Below the pieces are notes generated by a model that worked only from the letters and a program-made list of their open reading frames with translations, searched no databases and had not been told where the DNA came from. The position numbers were made by a program, and so were the translations under genes. From contig NZ_JARXYJ010000001.1 in the NCBI RefSeq assembly GCF_029894425.1, forward strand, positions 8,390,501-8,454,500: a DNA stretch of 64,000 bases, given 5' to 3'. Below, piece after piece: positions 35,715 to 45,021 of the stretch; position 1 is the stretch's first letter, and each line of letters begins with the position of its first letter. This stretch comes from Streptomyces sp. SAI-127 (GTDB lineage: Bacteria > Actinomycetota > Actinomycetes > Streptomycetales > Streptomycetaceae).

Positions 35715-36881
35715 ATGGGATCGCAGGACGAGCACACGGACGGCACCGGACGGCGGGCACTTCTCGGGGCCGCGATGTTCGGCGCCGGGGGAGCGGTCCT
35801 GGGCCTGTCCGGTACGGCGAGAGCCGCCGGAGCCGGGTCCACGGGGCACGCCGGCGGGTTGAAGAGCCTGCCCGTGCCGACGGTCATAGGCCACCGGGGC
35901 GCCAGCGGCTACCGCCCCGAGCACACCTTCGGCTCCTACCAGCTGGCCCTCGACCTGGGCGCCGACATCGTCGAGGCCGGCGACCTCGTCCCCACCAGGG
36001 ACGGGCACCTGGTCTGCCGCCACGAGCCGGAGATCGGCGGCACCACGAACGTCGCCGACCACCCCGAGTTCGCCGGCCGCAGGACCACCAAGGTCCTCGA
36101 CGGCGTCTCCACGACGGGCTGGTTCACCGAGGACTTCACGCTCGCCGAGCTCAAGACGCTCCGCGCGATCGAGCGCATCCCGGCCAACCGCCCGCACAAC
36201 ACGCTCTACAACGGCCGCTGGTCCATCCCCACCTTCGAGGAAGTCCTGAAGTGGCAGGACGAGCAGACCCGCAAGCGCGGCAAGCAGGTCTGGATCTACC
36301 CCGAGACCAAGCACCCCACCTACTTCCGGGGCCTCGGCCTAGGGCTCGAGGAGCGGGTCGCGAAGCTCCTGCACCAGCACGGCAAGGACAAGCGGAACTC
36401 CCCGGTCATCCTGCAGTCCTTCGAGCCGACCAGCATCCAGCGCCTGAACAAGCTGGTCGACAACCCCCTCGTCGTGCTCCTGTCCGCCGCGACCACCCGC
36501 CCCTGGGACTTCGTCGCGACGGGCGACCCGCGCACCGTCGCCGACCTGATCACCCCCAAGGGCCTCAGGGAGATCGCGGGCTACGCCCAGGGCATCGGCC
36601 CGACCCTCGACCTGGTCATCACGAAGAAGGCGGACGGCAGTCTCGACAAGGAGACGACCCTCGTGGCCGACGCCCACAAGGTCGGACTGATCCTGCACCC
36701 CTACACCATGCGCAACGAGAACCCCTTCCTGCCGGCGGAGTACCGCAGGGGCACGGACGCGGACGCCTACGGAGACGCCTTCGGCGCCTTCAAGAGGTAC
36801 TTCGCCACCGGCATCGACGGCGTCTTCACCGACAACGCGGACACGGGCGTCCTCGCCCGCGCGGACTTCGTCAACGGCTGA
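35715..36881 (+). CDS. glpQ1: Secreted glycerophosphodiester phosphodiesterase
   Basis: A 388-residue exported enzyme that hydrolyses glycerophosphodiesters to glycerol-3-phosphate and an alcohol, scavenging phosphate. The N-terminus GTGRRALLGAAMFGAGG is a twin-arginine signal. The catalytic block is IGHRGASGYRPEHTFGSY, with metal ligands in EAGDLVPTRDGHLVCRHEP; ILQSFEPTSIQRL and GIDGVFTDNADTG are late family blocks. ATG 35715 follows GGAGGGG at a good distance. The PHO box upstream makes it the likely orthologue of the PhoP-controlled S. coelicolor glpQ1 (by memory). Confidence 0.9.
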   Translation: MGSQDEHTDGTGRRALLGAAMFGAGGAVLGLSGTARAAGAGSTGHAGGLKSLPVPTVIGHRGASGYRPEHTFGSYQLALDLGADIVEAGDLVPTRDGHLVCRHEPEIGGTTNVADHPEFAGRRTTKVLDGVSTTGWFTEDFTLAELKTLRAIERIPANRPHNTLYNGRWSIPTFEEVLKWQDEQTRKRGKQVWIYPETKHPTYFRGLGLGLEERVAKLLHQHGKDKRNSPVILQSFEPTSIQRLNKLVDNPLVVLLSAATTRPWDFVATGDPRTVADLITPKGLREIAGYAQGIGPTLDLVITKKADGSLDKETTLVADAHKVGLILHPYTMRNENPFLPAEYRRGTDADAYGDAFGAFKRYFATGIDGVFTDNADTGVLARADFVNG

Positions 36882-36912
36882 GCCACCGTGCCCCGATCGG
36901 GGTGACTTACCG

Positions 36913-36939
36913 CCGCCCGGGCAACCCCGGCCCGGGCGG
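36913..36939 (+). terminator. Hairpin terminator after the glycerophosphodiesterase
   Basis: CCGCCCGGG (36913-36921) pairs with CCCGGGCGG (36931-36939) around a 9-base loop, 31 bases after the stop. Confidence 0.65.
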
Positions 36940-36955
36940 CCGGGTCGTACCGCAT

Positions 36956-37462
36956 ATGACGCACGACTTGGTCACGACCCTGCGCCCGCTGCTGACCGCC
37001 GAGGCCTCCGCGGAGGCACATGCCACCGGTACGGAACCGGCCGACCTGGAGCAGGCGGTGTGGCTCCGCCTCCTGGAGCATCTGGAGACCCAGGGCCCGC
37101 CCCTCGACCCGCCCGGCTGGCTCCGCCGCGCCGTCCGTTCCGAGTCCCGCCGCAGCCGTCGTACGACCCGCCTGGAACGGCCGTACGACACCGAACCCGT
37201 GGCCGACGACGAGCGCACCCCCGAACAGCTCACCCTCGCGGCGGCCCGCCGCAGGGCCCTGCACGACGCGGTGCGCCGACTGCCCGGCCGCTGCCCCTCG
37301 CTCATGGCGGCCCTCCTCTCCCCGCGGGACCTCACTTACCGGGAGATCGCGGGGGAGTTGGGTATCTCACAGGGCAGTCTTGGTCCGGAACGTTCCAGAT
37401 GCCTGGGATGTCTTCGCAGATTGCTCACACCGGAGGTTGCGACACGCCGGGGGCGGGGATAG
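36956..37462 (+). CDS. Short ECF-like RNA polymerase sigma factor
   Basis: A 168-residue protein. ADLEQAVWLRLLEHLETQG resembles region 2.1-2.2 of ECF sigma factors and PPGWLRRAVRSESRRSRR the region 2.3-2.4 end; LTYREIAGELGISQGSLGP is the region-4 helix-turn-helix, followed by RSRCLGCLRRLL. It is at the short end of the family, and no anti-sigma gene is adjacent. The frame is open through the preceding gene, but ATG 36956 is the first start after that gene's terminator. Target promoters unknown. Confidence 0.8.
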   Translation: MTHDLVTTLRPLLTAEASAEAHATGTEPADLEQAVWLRLLEHLETQGPPLDPPGWLRRAVRSESRRSRRTTRLERPYDTEPVADDERTPEQLTLAAARRRALHDAVRRLPGRCPSLMAALLSPRDLTYREIAGELGISQGSLGPERSRCLGCLRRLLTPEVATRRGRG

Positions 37463-37507
37463 GAGTGGGGGACGACAGGCGATCAGGTGAGCGGGAGGCG
37501 TGCGCAC

Positions 37508-38005
37508 ATGGGCATGAGCGTGACCATCTCTGCGGCGGCCGAGCAGGACGCGGAGCAGATCTTCAGGCTGCAGTACCTGTGCTTCCAGAGTGAGGCGGCG
37601 CTGTACGGCAACTACCGCATCGATCCGCTGGTCCAGAGCCTGGACTCGGTCCGCGCGGAGGTGGCCGCGGACTGCGTCTTCGTGGCCCGCCTGGGCGATG
37701 AGGTGGTCGGCTCGGTCCGCGGCCGCGTCACCGAGGACGGCTCGGCCGCCATCGGCAAACTCTGCGTCCACCCCCGCCTCCAGGGCCACGGCATCGGCGC
37801 CCGCCTTCTCCGGGCGGCCGAATCCGCCCTGGCGGAGGAGCGCGGCGCCACCAGCTTCCGCCTCTTCACGGGCCACCGCAGCGAGGGCAACCTCCGCCTC
37901 TACCGCAAGGTCGGCTACCAGACGGTGGGCACGTCGGAGGGCGCGGACGGGGTCCCGATGATCGTCCTGGAGAAACCCGCAGGCACATATGCAGCAACTG
38001 CATAG
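37508..38005 (+). CDS. GNAT-family acetyltransferase
   Basis: A 165-residue acetyltransferase. The acetyl-CoA site is HPRLQGHGIGARLLRAAE, and FRLFTGHRSEGNLRLYRKVGY is the end of the fold. ATG 37508 has GGGAGG 9 bases upstream and is preferred to the GTG at 37487. The last codons and the stop lie in a TATGCA/TGCATA dyad resembling an ARG box. The substrate is unknown; an N-acetylglutamate synthase role is conceivable given the arginine loci nearby but is not supported by motifs I can see. Confidence 0.85.
   Translation: MGMSVTISAAAEQDAEQIFRLQYLCFQSEAALYGNYRIDPLVQSLDSVRAEVAADCVFVARLGDEVVGSVRGRVTEDGSAAIGKLCVHPRLQGHGIGARLLRAAESALAEERGATSFRLFTGHRSEGNLRLYRKVGYQTVGTSEGADGVPMIVLEKPAGTYAATA
37988..38004. 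promoter_or_regulatory. ARG-box-like dyad at the 3' end of the GNAT gene
   Basis: TATGCA N5 TGCATA, the same half-sites as the argC box but with 5 rather than 6 central bases, overlapping the stop codon. It is next to a dispersed repeat and may be a terminator stem rather than an ArgR site. Confidence 0.3.
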
Positions 38006-38008
38006 TTT

Positions 38009-38038
38009 TTAGGGGCGCGGGGAACTGCGCGACCAGCC
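38009..38038 (+). repeat. Dispersed 3'-end repeat, short form (copy 4)
   Basis: TTAGGGGCGCGGGGAA, then CTGCGCGACCAGCC, four bases after the GNAT stop. It is in the short form, like copy 1, without the CTGTATCGAT insert. Confidence 0.8.
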
Positions 38039-38066
38039 ACGGCTGACCGGATGCCGCCCGAAGACC

Positions 38067-38474
38067 TCAGGCGGCATCCCCCTTGGGCGCAGCCTTCCGC
38101 AACCAGTAAATGGCGGAAAGCGGCAAGAGCACGGGGATGAACAGATACCCGATCCCGAAGTCCGACCACACGGTCGCATCCGGAAACGCAGACGGCTCCA
38201 CCAACGTCCAGGTGCCCACGGTCAGCACCCCCAGCAGCTCCACGACACAGCACACCAGCGCCGCCTTACGGGCAGTCTCACCGCCGCGCACCAGTGAGTA
38301 CGTGATGAAGCCGTAGACGACACCCGCCACCGCGGACAGCGAATACGCCAGCGGCGCCCGGTCGAACTCCGTGGAGATCTGCACGGCGGACCGAGACACC
38401 GCCCCGACGACCATCACCCCGTACAGCCAGACGAGCAGCGTCCCCGGCCCACTCGTCAGCCGTCGCCGACTCAC
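38067..38474 (-). CDS. Four-helix integral membrane protein
   Basis: A 135-residue membrane protein with four hydrophobic helices (GTLLVWLYGVMVVGAVS, AYSLSAVAGVVYGFITYSL, AALVCCVVELLGVLTVGTW, IGYLFIPVLLPLSAIYW) and a basic C-terminus. GTG 38474 is chosen because GGGGAGG lies 5 bases upstream; the longer frame overlaps the neighbouring gene. It follows the upstream membrane-protein gene by one base, so the two are surely co-expressed and may form a complex. Family not recognised beyond a conserved streptomycete membrane protein. Confidence 0.75.
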   Translation of the reverse strand: MSRRRLTSGPGTLLVWLYGVMVVGAVSRSAVQISTEFDRAPLAYSLSAVAGVVYGFITYSLVRGGETARKAALVCCVVELLGVLTVGTWTLVEPSAFPDATVWSDFGIGYLFIPVLLPLSAIYWLRKAAPKGDAA

Positions 38475-38475
38475 G

Positions 38476-38835
38476 TCAGCCTCCCCAGATGTCATAGAGC
38501 CGCACCTCCAGAACGGCCAGCACCACACCGCCGGCGGCAACCGTCACCGATCCCCACCGCGTCCGCTCCGTGAGCGACATGATCCCCGCTGCCGGCACAC
38601 ACGCGAACGCCCCCAGCAGATAGGCGACGAAGATCGTCGTCCCCTGCTCCGGCTTCTCGCCCCGCGCGAGCTGCACGATCCCGATCACCAGCTGGACCAG
38701 CGCCAGCACCGACACCACGGCCATCCCGATGAAGTGCCAGTCCTTGGTCGGCTGATCACGGTACGCGGCCCAGCCGCACCAGGCGGCCAGCAGCAGCGCG
38801 GCGACGCCGGTCACCAGCGTCAGGGCATCAAACAT
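38476..38835 (-). CDS. Four-helix integral membrane protein
   Basis: A 119-residue membrane protein: helices in LTLVTGVAALLLAAWCGWA, HFIGMAVVSVLALVQLVIG, TTIFVAYLLGAFACVPAAG and TVAAGGVVLAVLEVRLY. It is the first gene of a two-gene minus-strand operon with the protein at 38067-38474. No enzyme motif is visible and no function assigned. Divergent from the HAD phosphatase gene. Confidence 0.75.
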   Translation of the reverse strand: MFDALTLVTGVAALLLAAWCGWAAYRDQPTKDWHFIGMAVVSVLALVQLVIGIVQLARGEKPEQGTTIFVAYLLGAFACVPAAGIMSLTERTRWGSVTVAAGGVVLAVLEVRLYDIWGG

Positions 38836-38904
38836 GCGGCGAGCCTATTACGGTCCAAAAGGCCTGATGCGGCCGCCCCCGCACGGCACCGTAGGGTCGA
38901 CGGC

Positions 38905-39555
38905 ATGAAGATCCATGCCGAAGCCCTCCTGTTCGACAACGACGGAACCCTCGTCTCCTCCCTGGAATCGGTCCACCGCTGCTGGACGCGCTGGGCCGAG
39001 GAGTTCGGCATCACCGCCGAGGAGTTCGCCCGTGTCGAACTGCATGGACGGCCGGCCGTCGAGATAGCCGCCGACCTGCTCCCCGCCGACGTCGTGCCGC
39101 AGGCCCTCGCGCGGATCGAACAGCTGGAGGTGGAGGACGTACCCAACGGCGGTGTCCATCTGCTCCCCGGCACCAGGGTCTTCCTCGACGCCCTGCCCGC
39201 CGACCGCTGGGCCGTCGTCACCTCCGCCACCCGCCGGCTCGCCGAGGCCCGTCTCGAAGCGGTCGGCATCCTCCCCAAGACACTGGTCGCCGCCGACGAC
39301 GTCACCCGCGGCAAGCCGGACCCCGAGCCCTATCTGCTCGCCGCGCGTGACCTCGGCGTCGACCCGGCCCGTTGTGTCGTCTTCGAGGACGCCCCCGCGG
39401 GCCTGCGCGCCGGCCGGGCCGCCGGAATGACCACCGTGGCCTTGACCACAACTCATCAGGCCCATGAGCTCGATGCCGACTTGGTGGTCGAGAATCTGTC
39501 GGCCTTGTCGGCACTGGTCACCGGCGGAAGCGTGGAGATCTCCGTCCTGTCCTGA
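38905..39555 (+). CDS. HAD-superfamily phosphatase (beta-phosphoglucomutase-like)
   Basis: A 216-residue HAD hydrolase. Motif I is ALLFDNDGTLVSS, where the second residue after the nucleophile Asp is also Asp in the DNDGT form; motif II is WAVVTSAT; motif III/IV is GKPDPEPYLLAARDLG followed by CVVFEDAPAGLRAGRAAGM. The cap is inserted between motifs I and II, as in sugar-phosphatases of the PGMB group, so a phosphosugar substrate is likely. ATG 38905 begins at the first strand (MKIHAEALLF). Confidence 0.9.
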   Translation: MKIHAEALLFDNDGTLVSSLESVHRCWTRWAEEFGITAEEFARVELHGRPAVEIAADLLPADVVPQALARIEQLEVEDVPNGGVHLLPGTRVFLDALPADRWAVVTSATRRLAEARLEAVGILPKTLVAADDVTRGKPDPEPYLLAARDLGVDPARCVVFEDAPAGLRAGRAAGMTTVALTTTHQAHELDADLVVENLSALSALVTGGSVEISVLS

Positions 39556-39568
39556 AACGTGTCCACCG

Positions 39569-39587
39569 TTGTCCGTCATTCGGACAA
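39569..39587. terminator. Short inverted repeat after the HAD gene
   Basis: TTGTCCG TCATT CGGACAA: 7-base arms and 5-base loop, 14 bases after the HAD stop and 8 bases before the candidate promoter of the met leader. It could terminate the HAD transcript or be an operator for the met operon. Confidence 0.4.
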
Positions 39588-39594
39588 GGGGTTC

Positions 39595-39622
39595 TTGGTC
39601 GCTCCCATACGTCTGCTTTACT
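39595..39622 (+). promoter_or_regulatory. Candidate promoter of the metNIQ leader
   Basis: TTGGTC (39595-39600), 16-base spacer, TTTACT (39617-39622). The expected start site coincides with the ATG of the leader peptide at 39629, so the leader would be translated from a leaderless mRNA. Confidence 0.45.
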
Positions 39623-39628
39623 GATCGC

Positions 39629-39715
39629 ATGACCACGACGAGCTGCCGCACCCTTGCGACCGAGGCGACCATGACGCCCGGTGCTCGTTGTATGTGTCGA
39701 ATGTGCGCCTGTTAG
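39629..39715 (+). CDS. Cys/Met-rich leader peptide upstream of metNIQ
   Basis: A 28-codon reading frame from ATG 39629 to TAG 39713-39715. The peptide begins MTTTSCRTLATEATMTPG and ends CMCRMCAC, so the last eight residues contain four cysteines and two methionines directly before the stop. It precedes a methionine importer operon by 145 bases. Actinobacteria are known to use cysteine-rich leader peptides as attenuators or coupled uORFs upstream of sulphur genes; this fits that type with methionine codons added. The following gap holds a GCTCGC/GCGAGC hairpin (39739-39758) and a GTACG-rich dyad that could switch structure with ribosome position. Expression itself is not shown. Confidence 0.65.
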   Translation: MTTTSCRTLATEATMTPGARCMCRMCAC

Positions 39716-39860
39716 AGGGCCCCCGCACCACCCCCTGAGCTCGCGCCCCGAAGCGAGCCGCCCCGGCACGTCCGTACGCCGTGAACGCCGTACGTGACCC
39801 ATGTGCCCGCGCACGACTTCTCTCCCGTACCGGGGCACACCCACGCCCGCGTACTCGACA

Positions 39861-40907
39861 GTGACGGAAACCCCAGTGATCACGACAACAGGCCTCACGA
39901 AGGTCTACCGCTCACGCGGGCGAGAGATCACCGCCCTCGACGGCGTCGATCTCCATGTCCGCGAAGGCGAGGTGTACGGCGTCATCGGCCAGTCCGGCGC
40001 CGGCAAGTCCTCGCTCATCCGCTGCGTCAACCTGCTGGAGCGCCCCACCGCCGGCACGGTGACCGTCGCCGGACAGGACCTCACCGCCCTCGCGGGCCGC
40101 GGACCCCGTGCCGGCAGGGAGCTGCGGCAGGCGCGCAGCCGTATCGGCATGGTCTTCCAGCACTTCAACCTGCTGTCCACCCGGACGGTCCAGGACAACG
40201 TCGAGCTGCCGCTGGAGATCCTCGGCAAGTCCGGCAAGGAGCGCTCCCGCAAGGCACTTGAGCTGCTGGACCTCGTCGGACTCGCCGACAGGGCGGGCGC
40301 CTACCCGGCCCAGCTCTCCGGCGGCCAGAAGCAGCGCGTAGGCATCGCCCGTGCCCTGGCCGGCGATCCCAAGGTGCTTCTGTCCGACGAGGCCACCAGC
40401 GCCCTCGACCCGGAGACCACCCGCTCGATCCTCCAGCTGCTGCGCGACCTGAACCGGCAGTTGGGCCTCACCGTCCTGCTCATCACCCACGAGATGGACG
40501 TCGTGAAGTCGGTCTGCGACTCGGCCGCCCTGATGGAGAACGGCCGCATCGTCGAGTCCGGCACGGTCGGCGAGTTGCTCGCGACCCCCGGCTCCGAGCT
40601 GGCCTCCGCGCTCTTCCCCGTCGGCGGCGAGGCCACCGGCGAGGACCGGACCGTCATCGACGTCACCTTCCATGGCGAGGCCGCCACCCAGCCGGTCATC
40701 TCCCAGCTCTCCCGCACCTACAACATCGACATATCGATCCTCGGCGCCGCCATCGACACCGTCGGCGGCCTCCAGGTCGGCCGGATGCGGATCGAACTGC
40801 CCGGCCGCTACGAGGACAACGTCGTGCCGGTCGGCTTCCTGCGCGAACAGGGACTTCAGATCGACGTCGTCGGCGCGCCCCAGCTGGTGAAGGAAGGTGT
40901 CGAGTGA
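39861..40907 (+). CDS. metN: Methionine ABC transporter ATP-binding protein
   Basis: A 348-residue ATPase of the MetNIQ importer. Walker A is GQSGAGKSS, the Q-loop is in GMVFQHFNLL, the ABC signature is LSGGQKQRV, Walker B is VLLSDEATSALDPE and the switch histidine is in LLITHEMD. The C-terminal ~90 residues (VTFHGEAATQPVISQLS ... VGGLQVGRMRIELPG) are a NIL regulatory domain, where methionine binding inhibits transport. The start is uncertain: GTG 39861 or GTG 39876, neither with a strong ribosome-binding site, as expected if translation depends on the leader. Its stop overlaps metI (GTGA). Confidence 0.93.
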   Translation: MTETPVITTTGLTKVYRSRGREITALDGVDLHVREGEVYGVIGQSGAGKSSLIRCVNLLERPTAGTVTVAGQDLTALAGRGPRAGRELRQARSRIGMVFQHFNLLSTRTVQDNVELPLEILGKSGKERSRKALELLDLVGLADRAGAYPAQLSGGQKQRVGIARALAGDPKVLLSDEATSALDPETTRSILQLLRDLNRQLGLTVLLITHEMDVVKSVCDSAALMENGRIVESGTVGELLATPGSELASALFPVGGEATGEDRTVIDVTFHGEAATQPVISQLSRTYNIDISILGAAIDTVGGLQVGRMRIELPGRYEDNVVPVGFLREQGLQIDVVGAPQLVKEGVE

Positions 40908-41629
40908 CCTGGTCCGAGATGCAGCCCCTGCTGGAGCAGGCGTGTTGGGACACCCTCTACATGGTCGGCTGGTCCACGCTCATCGCCGTCGTGGGCGGCC
41001 TTCCGCTCGGTGTCCTCCTCGTCCTCACCGACCGCGGCGGACTCCTCCAGAACGTCGTCGCGAACAAGGTCATCGGGCAGGTCGTGAACGTCGCCCGCTC
41101 GATGCCGTTCATCATCCTGATGGTCGCGCTGATGGGCTTCACCCGCTCGATCACCGGGACGACCATCGGCCGCGAGGCAGCCATCGTGCCGCTCGCCATC
41201 GGAGCGATCCCCTTCTTCGCGCGCCTCGTCGAGACGGCTGTCCGCGAAGTGGACGGCGGGCTCGTGGAGGCCGTGCAGTCGATGGGCGGCAACACCTGGA
41301 CGATCGTCCGCAAGGTCCTCGTACCAGAGGCGCTGCCCTCGCTGATCGCCAGCACCACGACCACGGTCGTCGCCCTGATCGGCTACTCCGCGATGGCCGG
41401 CACGGTCGGTGCCGGCGGCCTCGGCGACATCGCCATCCGCTACGGCTACCAGCGCTTCGAGACCCAGCTCATGTGGATCACCGTCGCGATCCTCGCCGTC
41501 GTCATCTCGCTCATCCAGTTCGCCGGCGACTACGCCGCCCGCTCGCTGCACAGTCGCGGCGGACGCTCCGGCCCGGCGCCGAAGCTGCGGCTGCTGAAGG
41601 CCTCCACGGCGGACACCAAGACCGTCTGA
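40904..41629 (+). CDS. metI: Methionine ABC transporter permease
   Basis: A 241-residue permease with about five helices. The EAA coupling loop is VEAVQSMGGNTWTIVRKVLVPEALPS, which contacts MetN; TLYMVGWSTLIAVVGGLPLG and YSAMAGTVGAGGLGDIAIRYGY are typical of MetI. Its GTG overlaps the metN stop. MetQ follows after 67 bases. Confidence 0.95.
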   Translation: MTWSEMQPLLEQACWDTLYMVGWSTLIAVVGGLPLGVLLVLTDRGGLLQNVVANKVIGQVVNVARSMPFIILMVALMGFTRSITGTTIGREAAIVPLAIGAIPFFARLVETAVREVDGGLVEAVQSMGGNTWTIVRKVLVPEALPSLIASTTTTVVALIGYSAMAGTVGAGGLGDIAIRYGYQRFETQLMWITVAILAVVISLIQFAGDYAARSLHSRGGRSGPAPKLRLLKASTADTKTV

Positions 41630-41696
41630 GACACCCCCGATTTCCCCGTGCACCCGTACGCGGGGTTCGCTGCACCCAAAAGGAAAGGCACTTTTC

Positions 41697-42527
41697 GTGC
41701 GTAACGCCACAAAGCTCTCCACCGCCGTCCTCGCCGCCGGAGCCCTCACCTTCGGGCTCAGCGCCTGCGGTTCGTCCGGTGCGGACTCCGCCTCCGACAC
41801 CAGCGGACCGCTGGTCGTCGCCGCGAGCCCCACCCCGCACGCCGAGATCCTGAACTACGTCAAGGAGAACCTGGCGAAGAAGGCGGGCCTCGACCTCGAG
41901 GTCAAGGAGTTCACGGACTACGTGACCCCGAACACGGCGACGGAGGACGGCTCGGTCGGCGCCAACTACTTCCAGAACCAGCCGTACCTCGACGACTTCA
42001 ACAAGAAGCGCGGCACCCACATCGTGCCCGTCGTCACGGTCCACCTGGAGCCGCTCGGCCTCTACTCCCACAAGGTCAAGAGCGCCGACGCCCTGAAGAG
42101 CGGTGCGACGATCGCCGTCCCCAACGACAGCGTGAACGAGGCCCGTGCCCTCAAGCTGCTCGACGCCAACGGGATCATCACGCTCAAGGACGGCGTCGGC
42201 AACGAGGCGACCCCCTCCGACATCGCGAAGAACCCGAAGAACCTCACGTTCAAGGAGCTGGAGGCGGCCCAGACCCCGCGCTCCCTGGACGACGTCGACG
42301 CGGCCGTCGTCAACGGCAACTACGCCATCGAGGCCGACCTCAAGCCCGCATCGGACGCCCTCGTGCTGGAGTCCGCCAAGGAGAATCCGTACGGCAACTT
42401 CCTCGCGGTGAAGGACGGCAACGAGGACGACCCGCGCGTGAAGAAGCTCGCCGAGCTGCTCACCTCCGCCGAGGTCAAGAAGTTCATCGAGGACAAGTAC
42501 GCCGGTTCCGTCCTCGCCTCCTTCTGA
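41697..42527 (+). CDS. metQ: Methionine-binding lipoprotein
   Basis: A 276-residue substrate-binding lipoprotein (NlpA family). The lipobox is LSAC with cysteine near residue 24; residues after it are Ser/Asp-rich. VVAASPTPHAEILNYVKENL and VKEFTDYVTPNTATEDGSV, YFQNQPYLDDFN and VPNDSVNEARALKLL are standard MetQ blocks. GTG 41697 has AAAGGAAAGG upstream. Third gene of the operon; a hairpin follows at 42558. Confidence 0.95.
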   Translation: MRNATKLSTAVLAAGALTFGLSACGSSGADSASDTSGPLVVAASPTPHAEILNYVKENLAKKAGLDLEVKEFTDYVTPNTATEDGSVGANYFQNQPYLDDFNKKRGTHIVPVVTVHLEPLGLYSHKVKSADALKSGATIAVPNDSVNEARALKLLDANGIITLKDGVGNEATPSDIAKNPKNLTFKELEAAQTPRSLDDVDAAVVNGNYAIEADLKPASDALVLESAKENPYGNFLAVKDGNEDDPRVKKLAELLTSAEVKKFIEDKYAGSVLASF

Positions 42528-42557
42528 TCACCGGCGCGTATACGACGTATCGCCACG

Positions 42558-42594
42558 CACGGGGTCCACTCCGTCACCAGGTGTGGGCCCCGTG
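42558..42594 (+). terminator. Terminator of metNIQ
   Basis: A 12-base stem (42558-42569 with 42583-42594, one G-U pair) around a 13-base loop, 31 bases after the metQ stop. Confidence 0.65.
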
Positions 42595-42673
42595 ATGCGG
42601 TTCGGTGCTTTCATGCTGCATGCTGGGCAGTTCAGCAGGCCCTGCAGGTTTTCCGACGGTTACGGAGTGGCGC

Positions 42674-43312
42674 ATGACTGGCACCTTCCCCAACATCTCC
42701 ATCAGCACGGAGCGGTTGGTGCTGCGCCCTCTCGACGAGGACGACGTGCCCGCACTGGCCGAGATGATGAACGACGAGCAGGTCGGAGCCTGGACCGACG
42801 TGCCCCAGCCCTACAGCGAGGAACAGGCGCGCGGCTGGATCACGCAGTACGCGCCGTCCGAGCGGGAGGCCGGCCGCGGACTCGACTTCGCCGTCACCGA
42901 ATTCCTCACCCAGCGCCTGGTCGGCATCGTCCAGCTCGCCAAGACCAACTGGCACGTGCGCTCCACGGAGTTGTCGTACATCATCGCCCCGTGGGCCCGC
43001 GGCGAGGGCTACGCCTCCGAGGCCGCGCTCGCCACCGCCCACTGGCTGTTCACCGACCAGAAGTTCGAGCGGATCGAGCTGCGCACGGCGGCCGACAACA
43101 CCGCCTCCCAGCAGGTCGCCCAGAAGATCGGCTGTATCAGCGAGGGCGTCCTGAGAAACGCCTGCATAGCGCACGTCCGCGCCGAGGACGGCACCTGGAG
43201 CGACGTCCGCACCGACTTCATCGTGTGGAGCCTGCTGCCCGAGGACCTCGACGGAGCGGGCGATCAGCTGGCCGACTCGGACGGCTTCACGACGTACTCC
43301 GACTGGAACTGA
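42674..43312 (+). CDS. RimJ/RimL-type GNAT acetyltransferase
   Basis: A 212-residue acetyltransferase of the RimJ/RimL branch: ISTERLVLRPLDEDDVPAL at the start, SYIIAPWARGEGYASEAAL for acetyl-CoA and IELRTAADNTASQQVAQKI near the end. These enzymes acetylate protein N-termini or small amines; the target here is unknown. The frame begins at 42605, but ATG 42674 with GGAG upstream matches the family start. Located between met and cobalamin genes without obvious link. Confidence 0.88.
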   Translation: MTGTFPNISISTERLVLRPLDEDDVPALAEMMNDEQVGAWTDVPQPYSEEQARGWITQYAPSEREAGRGLDFAVTEFLTQRLVGIVQLAKTNWHVRSTELSYIIAPWARGEGYASEAALATAHWLFTDQKFERIELRTAADNTASQQVAQKIGCISEGVLRNACIAHVRAEDGTWSDVRTDFIVWSLLPEDLDGAGDQLADSDGFTTYSDWN

Positions 43313-43432
43313 CCGGATTCGCGCTCAGGCCGGCGAAAGCGCTTCCGAGGCGCAGCGGGTACCCTCACGGAGCAGCCCGCGGGCTGCCCACCGACGACGG
43401 CCTGCGCACACCCCCCTGGAGACTGAGAGACG

Positions 43433-44644
43433 ATGGCCGACCGGGTCACGGTGATCGGCTGGGACGGCTCGCCGCTGACCGCCGCGGCACGCTCCGCCCT
43501 CGGCGCCGCCACGCTGGTCGCGGGTGCCGCCCACCATCTGGCACTTCCCGAGGTGCCGCCCGCCGCCGAGCGCATCCGCCTCGGCAGCGTCGCCCTCGCC
43601 GCCCGCCGCATCACCGGCCACCGCGGCACCGCGGTCGTGCTCGCCGACGGCGATCCCGGGTTCTTCGGAGTCGTACGGACGCTGCGCGCACCCGAGTTCG
43701 GCCTGGAGGTCGAGGTCGTCCCCGGCGTCTCCTCGGTCGCCGCCGCCTTCGCGCGAGCCGGTATGCCCTGGGACGACGCCCAGGTGGTCGTCGCCCACCG
43801 GCGCACCCTGCGACGCGCGGTGAACGTGTGCCGAGCCCACACCAAGGTCGCCGTCCTCACCTCGCCCGGCGCCGGACCCGCCGAGCTCGGCCTGCTGATG
43901 GAGGGCGTCCACCGCACCTTCGTCATCTGCGAGGAGCTCGGCACCGACCGCGAACAGGTCACCGTCGTCACCTCCGACAAGGCCGCCGACCACACCTGGC
44001 GCGACCCCAACCTCGTCATCGTCATCGGCGGCACGGCCGCCGTGACGGAAGGCGGCGGATGGATCGCAGGGCGCGACCCGTCCGCCGCGCCGCGCGGCTG
44101 GACCCTGCCCGCCGAGTCCTACGGCGGCCTCATGGGCGAAGGCGAACTGGAGCCGCTCCGCGCGGCCCAACTCGCCCGGCTGGGACCGCGCGTCGGCGAC
44201 CTCGTGTGGGACATCGGCTGCGGCAGCGGCGCCTTCGCCATCGAGGCGGCCCGGGCCGGGGCGGCCGTCATCGCCGTCGACCGCGATCTCAGGGCCTGCG
44301 AGCGCACCGAGGCCAACGCCCGCGCCTTCGGACTCCAGGTCCAGATCGTCCCCGGCACCGCCCCGCACGTCCTGGAGAACCTGCCCGAACCGGACGTCGT
44401 CCGCGTCGGTGGCGGGGGAGTGGCCGTGGTCTCCGCGGTCGCCGACCGGCGCCCGCAGCGCATCGTCGCCCACGCGGCCACCCGTGACGAGGCCGAACTC
44501 GTCGGCCGGGACCTCACCGAACACGGCTACCGCGTCGAGTGCGCCCTCCTCCAGTCCGTCGAACTCGACACCCGGGCCTGGACGGAGACGGAACGGAGTG
44601 TCGCGTTCCTGCTCAGCGGGGTTCTCCCGGACCGTACGGCCTGA
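43433..44644 (+). CDS. cobL: Precorrin-6Y C5,15-methyltransferase (decarboxylating), CbiE-CbiT fusion
   Basis: A 403-residue bifunctional enzyme of cobalamin synthesis. Residues 1-~205 are the CbiE-type tetrapyrrole methylase (VTVIGWDGSPLTAAAR, VLADGDPGFFGVVRTLR, EVVPGVSSVAAAFARAG) that methylates C5. Residues ~210-403 are the CbiT-type SAM methyltransferase (WDIGCGSGAFAIEAARAG, IAVDRDLRACERTEANA) that methylates C15 and decarboxylates the C12 acetate. The fused layout is that of the aerobic pathway CobL. GGAGA lies upstream of ATG 43433. Next in line is the BluB-CobT fusion. Confidence 0.93.
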   Translation: MADRVTVIGWDGSPLTAAARSALGAATLVAGAAHHLALPEVPPAAERIRLGSVALAARRITGHRGTAVVLADGDPGFFGVVRTLRAPEFGLEVEVVPGVSSVAAAFARAGMPWDDAQVVVAHRRTLRRAVNVCRAHTKVAVLTSPGAGPAELGLLMEGVHRTFVICEELGTDREQVTVVTSDKAADHTWRDPNLVIVIGGTAAVTEGGGWIAGRDPSAAPRGWTLPAESYGGLMGEGELEPLRAAQLARLGPRVGDLVWDIGCGSGAFAIEAARAGAAVIAVDRDLRACERTEANARAFGLQVQIVPGTAPHVLENLPEPDVVRVGGGGVAVVSAVADRRPQRIVAHAATRDEAELVGRDLTEHGYRVECALLQSVELDTRAWTETERSVAFLLSGVLPDRTA

Positions 44645-45021
44645 CGCCGCCGGTCGTTGCTTCGCCGTCCCCGTGATCCGGTTGTCGTACTGCGCGCGGT
44701 AGGCTGGCCGACTGTTGTACCGCTCCTGGCCGACCGGCATTCGTTCGTCAATGTCCGGAAAGCGCGCCCGTTTTGGGGTGGGTGTGGTACGGCAGAACCG
44801 GAGGACGCGCAACGTGGCGCAGTCCACAGCGGGCTGTCGCGGATCAACCTGTCGCGACGGAGGAACGGCCGGGACAATGCCAGTTAATGGCTTTGTCGTC
44901 TTTCTCGGCGGGCCGTTCGTGCCGCTGGGCACGCACGCTCGTTCTTCACTGCGGGGGCGGTCGGTGCGCCGTCCCCGGCGAGCTGGTCGTAGAAGCACTA
45001 ACCGATGGGCGAGGGGTACGC
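44645..45021 (+). other. 377-base leader region before bluB-cobT
   Basis: No gene is clearly supported. I looked for a cobalamin riboswitch and cannot recognise its B12-box core. GTCGCG repeats around 44835-44865 can pair locally. A frame starting at ATG 44878 (MPVNGFVVFLGGPFVPLG) runs into the downstream gene in another frame and could be a uORF, but I do not claim it. Confidence 0.5.

Follow-up and report, generated by a model that had tools for sequence, protein, structure and literature searches.

Mycobacteria carry polycysteine leaderless short open reading frames (ORFs), which were reportedly described by Canestrari et al. in 2020 (doi 10.1111/mmi.14498). According to papers citing that work, such ORFs tune downstream genes to cysteine, a process termed attenuation of translation (PMC9031893, PMC9094748, PMC13236596). 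In the LEU element of leuA from Actinobacteria, a leader codon run has been proposed to pair with the Shine-Dalgarno (SD) region of the first gene (PMC1262725). A leader ahead of metNIQ, finally, was published in 2021 from Streptomyces lividans TK24 as the attenuator metL (SLIV_29928; PMC8079986, table 4); its description there mentions several methionines and threonines and a leaderless start determined by RNA-seq, and leaves the termination unclear, a typical terminator being absent.

A leader of this type precedes metNIQ in the 64,000-nucleotide stretch of Streptomyces sp. SAI-127 DNA analysed here (the window; table 1). It shares the position and the leaderless character of metL, whose peptide ends in RCMCRRMCAF and is encoded exactly by two of our loci (L087 and L099). 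The paper on metL is the only study of this leader found in our literature searches, and its passages on metL do not mention cysteine, comparative conservation, an RNA fold, the SL2 hairpin or the metN box, all of which are added here. The leader is already in print as metL; what is new is the comparative and RNA evidence, together with a second mini-ORF (ORF2) found in relatives. Going by the published accounts, the window leader resembles the mycobacterial polycysteine ORFs in being leaderless and short, in bearing cysteine codons and in lying ahead of the regulated genes, but it differs from them in that methionine alternates with cysteine, the target is a methionine importer, and a conserved RNA fold seems to occupy two thirds of the ORF. 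Contiguous cysteine codons are not found in the Streptomyces set, where Cys alternates with Met or Arg; CC is present in the Kitasatospora-type and Actinomadura leaders. With the LEU element, as described, it shares the proposed pairing of a codon run with an SD region and the lack of an obvious terminator, whereas the amino acid and the sequence are different and the candidate pairing, which has at best moderate support, is located upstream of a weak SD.

The leader encodes the peptide MTTTSCRTLATEATMTPGARCMCRMCAC, immediately followed by the stop codon, and its region is flanked by an ORF ending at 39555 on the 5' side and by metN on the 3' side. A first-pass annotation of the window, made from the sequence alone, had described a 28-codon frame with CMCRMCAC directly before its stop and had judged this end to be far beyond chance; the frame and its end were reproduced, and the composition is, indeed, exceptional. 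Among 675 ORFs of at least 10 codons in the window, the leader alone has more than three Cys and Met in its final eight residues (six), six such residues per eight codons occur in only one of the 127,954 eight-codon stretches in the six frames of the window, namely the leader end, and the pattern TGYATGTGYMGNATG has a single occurrence in the 10.7 Mb genome. The likely leaderless promoter of the same annotation is likewise supported: TTTACT or TTAACT precedes the ATG in all 109 relatives extracted, at a spacing of 6 nt (71) or 7 nt (38), the start in S. lividans is leaderless (PMC8079986), and the transcript would begin at or beside the AUG of the 28-codon ORF. An inverted repeat, TTGTCCG-N5-CGGACAA (39569-39587), lies 5' of the promoter, and similar GTCC..GGAC dyads occupy the same place in many aligned relatives; it could be connected with the end of the upstream gene or with the binding of a regulator.

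Table 1. Features of the metNIQ leader region (window coordinates) and ORF2 loci of other genomes.
Feature	Position	Strand	Remarks
-10-like promoter element TTTACT	39617..39622	+	6 nt upstream of leader ATG
Leader ORF, metL type	39629..39715	+	start ATG 39629; 28 codons plus TAG (39713-39715)
Predicted P1, 5' strand ACGACGAGC	39635..39643	+	partner 39683-39691
Predicted P2 hairpin CGCA-NNNN-UGCG	39647..39658	+	
Predicted P3 hairpin ACCGaGGCG / CGCCCGGU	39659..39682	+	all pairs in 108/108 of the Streptomyces set, invariant there
Predicted P1, 3' strand GCUCGUUGU	39683..39691	+	extends into first Cys codon of leader end
Putative sensor codons CMCRMCAC	39689..39712	+	sequence
Candidate long-range strand PS, UGUCGA-AU-GUGCGC	39695..39708	+	within leader end
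Conserved GAGGGCC motif	39715..39721	+	overlaps stop codon
SL2 hairpin CTCGC-GCCCCGAA-GCGAG	39740..39757	+	also in Actinomadura
Conserved box GCGTACTCGACA	39849..39860	+	5' of metN; candidate partner of 39695-39708
metN	39876..40907	+	start GTG 39876; open frame extends from 39801
Putative metI-like permease ORF	40904..41629	+	by eye and published operon name
Putative metQ-like substrate-binding lipoprotein ORF	41697..42527	+	assigned by eye
ORF2 loci outside the window	L353, L253, L263, L271, L402-L409, L412, L413, L415-L417		ends LRRLSHLPF(P/H)PGTR, HLLSHAPYPPGxx or RCRLAHDPQPPGxx(x)
ORF2 loci outside the window, rest	L422-L425, L427, L428, L433, L434, L439		as above

A DNA search detected the leader in 23 of 41 relatives, with every match within the genus of the window, and in 234 of 246 genomes of that genus. 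A covariance model built from 52 leaders extended it to 83 of 150 genomes of the family (13 of 17 genera), and a pattern combining the stop-proximal motif with the hairpin to at least nine Actinomadura records (eight named species and one sp.) among the 80 matches listed of 118; leaders of Actinomadura end, for example, in CCRRMCDR before the stop, and the printed DNA of L253, L263 and L271 includes the start of metN. A looser pattern run on a class-wide sample matched in 45 of 394 genomes (7 of 137 genera). Of its six matches outside the genus, five are without the hairpin stem and are probably fortuitous; the sixth (genome G715) is real. The Kitasatospora-type leaders (L193-L202) read MTATTTCTPTGTxPAGxxxMCCRMCHC, with the Cys/Met end kept; their possible stem (CCGGC/GCCGG) is another one, as is their box upstream of metN. 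Four further loci (L363, L366, L372 and L374), from genera without the first leader type, have other short ORFs 5' of metN, whose last residues, H(R/W)(S/P)A(G/D)G(C/R)C(L/R)M, likewise include Cys plus Met.

Altogether 162 leaders were extracted, 109 of them forming the Streptomyces set and 53 coming in addition, with seven starts re-anchored by hand or pattern. The frame, scored as a distance from the ATG to the CG(A/C)ATG codons that is a multiple of three, is kept in all 162, with parsimony placing about 35 changes of length on the tree built from 158 of the sequences. The ORFs range from 26 to 38 codons and stop with TGA (91) or TAG (71). The gap from the stop to metN follows no multiple-of-three rule (residues 0:1:2 at 62:47:51 of 160). 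As in attenuator leaders, a short ORF with codons for the regulated amino acids near its end lies ahead of a gene of the matching pathway, here metN; that it is translated we infer from the conservation of its frame.

The first-pass annotation had proposed to look for conservation of the peptide end in other Streptomyces genomes, and this end is indeed rich in Cys and Met in both sets: over the last ten positions the two residues together reach 48% in one set (73 distinct peptides) and 42% in the other (47), against 6% and 8% elsewhere, and every distinct peptide of both sets contains at least one of each. On these grounds, the published reading as Met/Thr needs to be revised to Cys/Met. Could the end instead be a nascent-chain arrest peptide recognized by its sequence rather than a sensor of codon starvation? 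R-M is found within the last eight residues in all distinct peptides (73/73 and 47/47) and CGA ATG is invariant (109/109), as such a peptide would have it; however, the Cys/Met stretch tolerates inserts as long as about ten codons, as well as substitutions of Cys by Arg and of Met by Leu, Thr or Ser, and the N-terminal part lacks conservation at the protein level. An arrest peptide is thus the less likely of the two, and we consider it improbable.

The remainder of the ORF presents a different picture. Absence of a conserved frame, with no enrichment of synonymous substitutions, had been named beforehand as evidence against a translated leader; the frame is conserved throughout, but codons 2-20 show no excess of synonymous changes, the counts at the three codon positions being 31:63:35, compared with 56:27:311 in metN (tree of 81 metN sequences). 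Codons 2-20 look as if they evolve like a folded RNA and not as coding sequence. Their variation fits a predicted three-way junction of the stems P1, P2 and P3, with a mean of 0.57 changes at predicted stem positions and 6.2 at unpaired ones (Mann-Whitney P 1.5e-7, the stems having been chosen from the same sequences), and codons that are rare in metN are fixed here, for example GGT (108 of 109 leaders), GCT (108) and CGA (109). Mean fold probabilities are 0.98 for each of P1, P2 and P3 and 0.93 for SL2, calculated over those of the 109 sequences that have the exact strands (91, 57, 109 and 101, respectively). The GC-rich dyad announced by the first-pass annotation downstream of the leader stop corresponds to SL2, the exact 14-base core of which is present in 100 of 109 relatives. 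GAGGGCC plus an SL2 hairpin with the conserved loop is common to relatives as far as Actinomadura.

In a tree-aware covariation test, no structural pair reached significance. The best one, P1 14-56, which changes from G-C to A-U in 26 of 48 family-set sequences, has an E of about 17, and the only two column pairs with E<1, adjacent at the stop codon, were put down to an alignment artefact, the shift between TAG and TGA. Most pairs are nearly invariant across the Streptomyces set; changes on both sides were counted for SL2 113-128 (four events) and P1 14-56 (two events), and single pairs are broken by up to 10 events (P1 7-63). What supports the structure is thus the way in which its sites vary, together with some changes that are compensatory. 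A pseudoknot between GAGGGC and the SL2 loop and a pairing of P1 with SL2, both judged by eye only, were dropped.

Genes for methionine are classical riboswitch targets, and the RNA-like behaviour of codons 2-20 invites the idea that the 5' three-way junction is a ligand-binding riboswitch, with the ORF being secondary. The variation is, however, concentrated in the loops and the junction, unlike in an aptamer core, the frame is kept in every leader, and the Kitasatospora-type leaders differ N-terminally yet retain the Cys/Met codons. Rfam gave no relevant match at E<=1 for positions 36000-45000 of the window, the only hit being MIR439 at 36882-36970, below the gathering score. We thus regard a riboswitch as quite unlikely. 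Conservation at the RNA level would also account for many invariant sites if the ORF were a by-product inside a conserved RNA and no regulation took place, but a by-product would hardly survive the length changes with its frame intact, nor would Cys and Met be enriched in lineages with unrelated N-terminal parts as well; this explanation appears very improbable.

A leader that precedes metN, maintains its frame and carries Cys/Met codons is most simply read as a sensor of codon starvation, and ribosome-sensed Cys/Met control of metNIQ is, judging from the comparative data, probable. The stalling-based reading of the first-pass annotation stands in so far as frame and Cys/Met codons are conserved, but codons 2-20 do not show the coding-type conservation it implied. 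We infer that a shortage of charged Cys-tRNA or Met-tRNA would make the ribosome stall on the C-M-C-R-M-C codons, that with plenty of both it would arrive at the leader stop and depart, and that stalling would most likely switch metN on at the level of translation: a stalled ribosome would keep open the sensor codons, which would otherwise be free to pair just upstream of the metN start. This start is most likely GTG 39876, 160 nt past the leader stop and preceded by the weak ribosome-binding site (RBS) ACGGAA, in agreement with the earlier remark that metN has no good one. The gap of 145 bases given previously relied on GTG 39861 and has to be corrected, as that codon shares the metN frame in only 53 of the 109 relatives; in 40 it lies in another frame, and in 16 it was not found. 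A metN start pattern is found downstream of the leader throughout the Streptomyces set (109/109) and in 160 of 162 cases overall, one of them (L196) doubtful.

Control of translation is favoured because the conserved box sits right at the metN start. Stalling might instead govern Rho-dependent, or other non-intrinsic, termination between leader and metN. The conserved hairpin has no U-run, and no hairpin with one was seen 3' of the leader (by inspection); the untranslated region (UTR) is long and variable, with leader-to-metN spacings of 156-255 nt; the S. lividans authors, too, left the termination unclear (PMC8079986), and for the Cys leaders of mycobacteria an involvement of Rho has been suggested (PMC1262725). 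Stalling of a ribosome further upstream would not, however, by itself shield the downstream RNA, and with the position of the box also speaking for translation, such termination seems unlikely, if not negligibly so.

As regards the translational effector, the leader-end strand UGUCGA-AU-GUGCGC is complementary to GCGYACUCGACA immediately upstream of metN, with 12 predicted pairs plus a 2-nt bulge, each pair being formed in 84-108 of 108 Streptomyces-set sequences. Among sliding windows of the UTR, the one that pairs best with the metN start region begins 27 nt (73) or 30 nt (2) 5' of the leader stop in 75 of 109 relatives, and the segment chosen in advance (-21 to +3 relative to the stop) ranks first in none of the 109, at a median shuffle z of -2.1. 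An equally strong pairing arises by chance for 2.5% of window segments, 1.6% of GC-matched ones and 0.6% in the case of the consensus. In the family set, the leader end beats its shuffles at P<=0.05 in only 9 of 51 cases, the remainder being matched by shuffled ends. Ensemble folding gives an expectation of at least six of the pairs in 36 of 109 sequences and of less than one in 30. A simulated ribosome on the Cys codons opens positions -28..-4 by more than 0.1 in 41 of 109 sequences (masks farther downstream in 1 and 0), the corresponding numbers are 43 for a ribosome placed on the stop and 22 for an early one, and the SD window is opened by masking in only 20; masking as modelled has a modest effect and does not separate stalling from termination. 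The TCGACA box is present in 106 of 109 members of the Streptomyces set and 21 of 50 of the family set, and it has degenerated in genomes of the Kitasatospora type and in some of the Actinacidiphila type, most of whose leaders keep UGUCGA; the pairing, itself weakly supported, is lost in some relatives. It is in view of these chance levels, the folding, the masking and the loss of TCGACA that we hold the sensor function to be probable, whereas the idea that it acts through RBS pairing, and not through Rho or in some other way, is tenable but somewhat doubtful.

In some relatives, ORF2 lies between the leader and metN, and its peptides (for example MNCPADTLVLRRLSHLPFHPGTR) have, close to the stop, ends of the types LRRLSHLPF(P/H)PGTR, HLLSHAPYPPG and RCRLAHDPQPPG. 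The first occurs, directly before the stop, in other genera of the family of G715, and the second in Actinomadura and G715 itself, whereas 12 family-set loci have RCR(L/I)AH(D/H)(P/A)QPPG. The motif pattern was matched in 34 of 120 genomes of G715's family (6 of 120 for the reversed control); among the 30 loci extracted there, the motif lies 77-147 nt 5' of the metN start in 18 and does not in 12, and in three of the 18 (L391-L393) the frame continues about 18 codons beyond it. For the family of the window, 22 of 150 genomes matched (reversed control 7 of 150), and the 26 loci include 11 short ORFs 5' of metN and 14 mostly long unrelated frames, with L416 a twelfth short ORF before a metN missed by the search expression. 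Within peptide classes, pairwise comparison of 38 distinct motif DNAs yields 717 synonymous to 257 nonsynonymous differences, and 177:130:859 by codon position (the pairs being non-independent in both counts). These ratios indicate that selection on ORF2, unlike that on the first part of the leader ORF (ORF1), acts at the level of the peptide.

ORF2 peptides vary at the N-terminus and are fixed over a dozen C-terminal residues, which end in PG a little ahead of the stop. Arrest peptides look like this, and by this analogy ORF2 resembles them. NCBIfam at E<=10 contained no family for three leader peptides and four ORF2 peptides (of types other than LSHLPF), and in a literature search with peptide strings no ORF2 string was among the matches listed, all of which concerned an unrelated use of MCRMC. 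No ORF2 motif occurs in any of the three frames between leader stop and metN at the 109 Streptomyces-set loci, where other short ORFs in this gap differ between species. A speculative scenario, possible rather than probable, is that actinobacterial metNIQ operons have a two-stage leader, in which ORF1 would sense the shortage of charged Cys- or Met-tRNA, and ORF2 would represent a new arrest-peptide family sensing methionine, S-adenosylmethionine (SAM) or the state of translation. Streptomyces would then have lost ORF2 and kept ORF1, a coding sequence doubling as a three-way-junction RNA, with sensor codons that bind the metN start region.

The published metL attenuator thus gains a broad evolutionary basis, and its likely signal moves from Met/Thr to Cys/Met. 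The leader provides a case of a coding sequence of which two thirds is apparently constrained as RNA. ORF2, of which we found no description, is a conserved peptide leader ahead of metNIQ in related actinobacteria and, as a candidate arrest peptide, the most interesting lead of the analysis.
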